A stretch of DNA of 64,000 nt from Anaeromyxobacter dehalogenans 2CP-C. GTDB taxonomy: Bacteria; Myxococcota; Myxococcia; Myxococcales; Anaeromyxobacteraceae. The translations under genes were made by a program, and so were the position numbers. Positions within the stretch are counted from its first letter, which is position 1; every line of letters starts with the position of its first letter. The DNA lies in contig NC_007760.1 of assembly GCF_000013385.1 (NCBI RefSeq), forward strand, positions 4,872,001 to 4,936,000, read 5' to 3'. Below the pieces are notes generated by a model that was not told the DNA's origin, made no database searches, and worked only from the letters and a program-made list of their open reading frames with translations. This document shows positions 9,328 to 14,908 of this stretch, piece by piece.

Positions 9328-9904
<577 letters not shown>

Positions 9905-9982: not shown

Positions 9983-11042
9983 GTGTCCCGCACCGCCCAG
10001 CCCGCCCAGCTCTCCGCCGCGCTCTCCCGCGCCGCGATCGACTCCCTCGCCGACGCGGTCGTGATCGTCGGCGCCGACGGCGGGGTGCTGCACCTCAACC
10101 CCGCCGCCGAGGAGCTGTTCGGCCGCTCGCGCGAGCGCACCGTGGAGCTGCCGGTGCGCGCGCTCCCCGGCGGCGCCCAGCTCGAGAAGGTGGCCGAGCG
10201 CACCGTCCGCACGCACGAGGGGCAGGCGACCGAGTTCCCGTCGCCGCAGGACCGCGGCCTGCAGGTCTCGGTGTCGGCGACGCCGCTCCTCGACGGCGCG
10301 GTCTGCGCCGGGGCGGTGCTGGTGCTGCGGGTGCCCCGCTCCGCCGACCGCGCGCTCGACTTCGAGGCGCTCGCCGCCGGCCTCGCCCACGAGATCAAGA
10401 ACCCGCTGGCCGGCCTGCAGGGCTCGGCCGAGCTGCTCGCCCGCGAGGCCGAGGGGCCCGCCCGCGAGTACGCGGCGGTGATCGCGCGCGAGGCGAAGCG
10501 CGTGGACGGGCTGGTGCGCGAGCTGCTCGACCTCGCCCGCCCGGCCGCGCTGCAGGCAGGCGCCGGTCGAGCTGCACGACGTGCTCGGCGACGCGCTGGT
10601 GCTGGCGCGCGGCATCCCGGGCGCCGACCGGATCGCGTTCGTGGAGCGCTACGACCCGTCGCTCCCGCCGGTGCTGGGCGACGAGGAGAAGCTCATGCAG
10701 GTGGTGCTGAACCTCGTCCGCAACGCGGTGGACGCGGTCGCCACCACCCCCTCGCCGCGGGTGACCATCGAGACCTCGGTGTCCCCGCTGCGCCTGCGCG
10801 TGGCGAGCGGCCGCACCCGCCCGCTGGCGCGCGTCTCGATCCAGGACGAGGGCCCGGGAATCCCCGAGGCCATGCTGCAGCGGCTGTTCACGCCGTTCGC
10901 GACCTCGAAGCCGCACGGCACCGGGCTCGGGCTCGCCATCTCGCGGCGCATCGTGGAGGCGCACGGCGGGCGCATCGAGGTCCGCAACCGGGCCGGGGGC
11001 GGGGCGGAGGCCAACGTGTACCTGCCCCTCGACGTCCCCTAG
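9983..11042 (+). pseudogene. ntrB: NtrB nitrogen sensor kinase, frameshifted
   Basis: Codons from the GTG at 9983 encode a PAS-like N-terminal domain and the phosphoacceptor helix AAGLAHEIKNPLAGLQ (His136), typical of NtrB/GlnL. After Gln191 the frame breaks: CAGGCAGG at 10553-10560 is a tandem 4-base duplication. Removing one copy restores continuous LQ-APVELHDVLGDAL and leads into a complete HATPase domain (N box NLVRNAVDAV, DEGPGIPE, GTGLGLAIS) ending at 11042. As written, the first product keeps the histidine but gains an unrelated tail to 11056. The ATPase part could only be made by reinitiation, for example at the GTG at 10581. Sequencing error, a real mutation, or programmed slippage are the alternatives. 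Confidence 0.88.
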
Positions 11043-11068
11043 CCCGTCCGGCGTAGCGGCGGCCCCGC

Positions 11069-11160: not shown

Positions 11161-12612
<1,452 letters not shown>

Positions 12613-12623
12613 CAGGCCCGCGC

Positions 12624-12666
12624 CTGCCCGGAACCCGGGCAGCCCGGTGCCCGAAAACCGGGCACC
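12624..12666. terminator. Tandem hairpins between ntrC and the convergent gene
   Basis: Two consecutive perfect 8-base-pair stems: CTGCCCGG/CCGGGCAG (12624-12642) and GGTGCCCG/CGGGCACC with an AAAAC loop (12646-12666). Placed 12 bases after the ntrC stop and a few bases from the stop of the opposite gene, they probably end transcription from both sides. No U-run follows, as is common in very G+C-rich genomes. Confidence 0.6.

Positions 12667-13483: not shown

Positions 13484-14908
<1,425 letters not shown>

Follow-up and report, generated by a model that had tools for sequence, protein, structure and literature searches.

NtrB (NR(II), GlnL) is the PII-controlled kinase of the NtrB–NtrC system. 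HisKA kinases need their ATPase domain for autophosphorylation, and in enteric bacteria acetyl phosphate can phosphorylate NtrC without the kinase. Genes of two-component systems are known to lose their frame in the genus considered here: the main text of a two-component survey describes sporadic frameshift pseudogenes in Anaeromyxobacter strains, which make up less than 1% of orthologue clusters within a genus (PMC4603909).

The DNA analysed here (the window) is a stretch of 64 kb from the complete genome of Anaeromyxobacter dehalogenans 2CP-C, which has 5,013,479 bases. Positions are those of the window unless a genome position is given. An ntrB-like kinase gene is located between glnB and ntrC, and in the deposited sequence it is out of frame at 10553–10560.

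A kinase gene in two frames

The frame that starts with GTG 9983 contains a PAS domain (residues 16–113) and a HisKA domain (residues 130–187) and is coding up to Gln191. Beyond Gln191 it gives a basic tail rich in Arg, Ala, and Gly, up to a stop at 11056. The HATPase_c domain is found in the adjacent frame, which has its stop at 11042. The PAS, HisKA, and HATPase domains are thereby distributed over two frames in 2CP-C, whereas they share a single frame in the nearest relatives. An earlier note on this DNA had placed the break between the histidine and ATPase domains, had given the letters at the break as CAGGCAGG, and had described P-II, NtrC, and GlnA as intact on either side. All of this holds: the letters are as given, PAS and HisKA are in one frame and HATPase_c in the next, and the three neighbours are full length by their profile matches (Table 1).

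Table 1 Features of the ntrB-like locus (window positions)
Feature	Position	Strand	Basis
glnB, P-II nitrogen regulator, 117 aa, intact	9551..9904	+	Pfam P-II 1.4e-32; NCBIfam PRK10858 1.1e-52
ntrB-like kinase 5' part, PAS + HisKA (HEIKNPL H-box), to Gln191	9983..10555	+	Pfam PAS, HisKA
CAGGCAGG, site of the single-base net length difference (GG in 2CP-C, G in relatives, 10555–10556)	10553..10560	+	nine-genome Anaeromyxobacter alignment
ntrB-like kinase 3' part, HATPase domain, next frame	10557..11042	+	Pfam HATPase_c 5.8e-27
out-of-frame Arg/Ala/Gly-rich tail, post-break product of the GTG 9983 frame	10556..11056	+	translation of 9983–11056
ntrC-like response regulator (receiver, sigma-54 activator, Fis-type HTH), intact	11161..12612	+	profile matches
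glnA, type I glutamine synthetase, intact	13484..14908	+	TIGR00653 689.9 bits, cut-off 429

The name ntrB rests on the context of the gene, because even the intact kinase of a relative scores 168.0 bits and does not reach the curated NR(II) cut-off of 240. The locus and its flanks are colinear in the nearest complete relative, and in plasmid records the P-II region is the only match. ARAGORN calls a tRNA-SeC on the minus strand at 12540–12638, overlapping the 3' end of ntrC. This call is probably false, as it is absent from the related loci searched (including that of the nearest complete relative, which spans the site) and has no Rfam match.

Comparison with sister genomes

Nine Anaeromyxobacter genomes were compared, 2CP-C included; its two closest relatives are 95 and 96% identical to it. 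The ntrB-like gene is present in all nine, and the break is absent from the eight others. Over 1060 bases, each of the two nearest relatives is one base shorter than 2CP-C, and the sole gap falls at this spot, where 2CP-C reads CTGCAGGCAGG and both relatives read CTGCA-GCAGG. The relatives have CTGCAGCAGG in frame, encoding Leu-Gln-Gln. The six more distant genomes are also without the base at the same alignment column. As in a pseudogene, the disabling base is private to 2CP-C among the nine genomes. The alignment shows a net gain of one base in 2CP-C, where G has become GG.

The earlier note had interpreted the break as a tandem duplication of CAGG, expecting four bases in relatives where 2CP-C has eight, and had suggested that slippage at the repeat could make it a reversible switch. 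The letters do make CAGGCAGG. However, the nearest relatives carry CAGCAGG, which is one base shorter and not four. In addition, dropping one CAGG restores the frame as Leu-Gln-Ala-Pro, one residue short of the Leu-Gln-Gln-Ala/Gly-Pro of the relatives. Their proteins follow the pattern Leu-Gln-X-(Ala/Gly)-(Pro/Ala), with one residue between Gln191 and the Ala-Pro of the proposed restored frame. A single-base insertion is the more parsimonious history, because after a CAGG duplication the lineage would then have had to lose three bases. The window contains 128 perfect 4-base tandem pairs, and therefore the repeat is best attributed to chance and carries no evidential weight. Without the duplication, the switch loses its basis as well. 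A contingency locus needs more than two copies, and the relatives differ from 2CP-C by one base, not by copy number, and do not have the single-copy state. A four-base duplication that works as a reversible switch by slippage is accordingly very improbable. A chance tandem repeat beside a frame break mimicked a duplication and a switch here, and the sister genomes show a one-base indel, which calls for caution with such repeats.

Rarity and age of the break

The frequency of frame breaks was estimated with a codon-usage screen of five stretches, about 789 kb in total, aligned to the nearest complete relative; the rate is that of a sample. This screen was used in place of an earlier one based on open reading frames and mismatch phase, which was dominated by intergenic indels and missed ntrB. 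The screen gives three in-gene frame breaks in 2CP-C (ntrB included) and two in the nearest complete relative, all of them candidates that were not individually vetted, and the ntrB-bearing stretch was chosen for ntrB. With stricter limits, over 520 kb, ntrB is the sole clear mid-gene break in either genome, and the one other hit has no stop and is located right at the beginning of a gene. Two other 200-kb stretches contain no frame breaks by the strict criteria. Neither genome has many such frame differences, and errors do not abound in the assembly. Residual errors or sporadic null mutations would yield a few per genome, and these counts neither rule out an error nor establish a null.

Besides ntrB, the in-gene candidates in 2CP-C are located at genome positions 1301531 and 1282326. 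At genome position 4807796, 2CP-C has a 13-base insertion compared with the closest complete genome, with an imperfect tandem repeat (CTGACGCGCGCGC / CTGACGCG); judged by mismatch phase, the DNA to either side of this insertion is probably coding.

Both parts of the kinase are well preserved. At the protein level, the 5' part is 96% identical to residues 2–194 of the relative's kinase and the 3' part is 95% identical to residues 185–350; the 3' half retains its N, G1, and G2 boxes. Private changes of 2CP-C in the 151 codons of the 3' half amount to 2 synonymous and 2 replacement, compared with 8 and 2 and with 8 and 3 in the two relatives. In the 184 codons of the 5' half, 2CP-C has 12 synonymous and 2 replacement private changes. 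The replacement share expected without selection is 0.72; the four private changes in the 3' half contain no replacement excess, and four are too few to show or exclude relaxation. Because the 3' half carries no further damage, the break is either very young or absent from the cell.

Sequencing error or young null mutation

The best explanation is that the deposited glnB–ntrB–ntrC operon is normal apart from one added base (G to GG), a very recent indel that is either an error or a null mutation. We put the probability of this reading at about 0.9. In the deposited sequence, this base shifts the ATPase domain of the kinase into another frame. Should it be real, the cell would make a fragment consisting of PAS and HisKA followed by a basic tail read in the wrong frame, and this fragment would be unable to autophosphorylate. 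By analogy with enteric NtrB, NtrC would then rely on acetyl phosphate or cross-talk.

Whether the base is a base-call error or a young null mutation stands at about even odds. A residual base-call or assembly error in a finished genome, with an intact kinase in the cell, has an even chance of being correct. The base is absent from the relatives and the 3' half shows no decay. A one-base break without other damage in a conserved operon gene has the usual look of an error, and the sister genome has comparably few sporadic frame breaks. On the other hand, the site is not within a long homopolymer, and a search for a hairpin found folding of the surrounding DNA no stronger than that of shuffled versions (z +1.33), which leaves no particular ground to suspect a sequencing artefact. 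The scarcity of such breaks in the assembly, with none by the strict criteria in the two other 200-kb stretches, also argues against an error.

A real and recent null mutation of the strain or laboratory stock, with NtrC left to acetyl phosphate or other kinases, comes just short of an even chance. The cells that supplied DNA for the 2CP-C genome had been cultured in R2A complex medium (PMC2330069). Nitrogen control is less important in rich-medium cultures, and loss of NtrB would probably be tolerated in R2A. The genome has about 70 other kinase-like matches, the best of them 40% identical. A nifH match above the family cut-off is missing from the whole genomes of 2CP-C and its closest complete relative, and is present in all seven other members of the genus, including the relative at 96% identity. 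This pattern would reflect a recent loss of nitrogen fixation, or its gain elsewhere. With no nifH in the strain, control of nitrogenase is not at stake, and the physiological stakes are therefore limited. Against a null mutation, the base is known from a single isolate, and the 3' half gives no sign of relaxed selection in its four private changes, a weak test.

It is highly unlikely that the break is bridged, by programmed frameshifting or by translation of the ATPase half on its own (with GTG 10581 as one possible start), in a manner that preserves kinase function. In favour of bridging, the ATPase half keeps its conserved sequence in the adjacent frame. However, the site lacks a slippery run, and no stop that could couple re-initiation is close to the break in the GTG 9983 frame. 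The nearest intact relatives also have the internal GTG, where it is read as an ordinary valine codon, and none of the relatives is arranged in this way. We give very little credence to a real split in which both pieces are made and nitrogen is controlled by an NtrB in two parts, its free ATPase domain phosphorylating a separate PAS-HisKA protein.

An effect of the single extra base on nitrogen control is possible, on condition that the base is real. In that case, the sequenced strain would be an ntrB null, which matters for studies of its nitrogen control. If the base is not real, the reference sequence holds an error in a regulatory gene. We found no report of this ntrB break in the literature.

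Compared with phase-variable short-repeat genes (contingency loci), the gene shares a short tandem repeat within a coding frame, but it has two four-base copies, which are not ancestral and do not vary in number among relatives. This ntrB is not among the frameshift pseudogenes listed in the main text of the two-component survey (PMC4603909), although it resembles those described there in being a sporadic frameshift in an Anaeromyxobacter two-component gene. The likeness to NtrB (NR(II)) extends to the glnB–ntrB–ntrC operon near glnA, the PAS, HisKA, and HATPase architecture, and the HEIKNPL H-box; the 2CP-C gene differs from NtrB in its interrupted reading frame.
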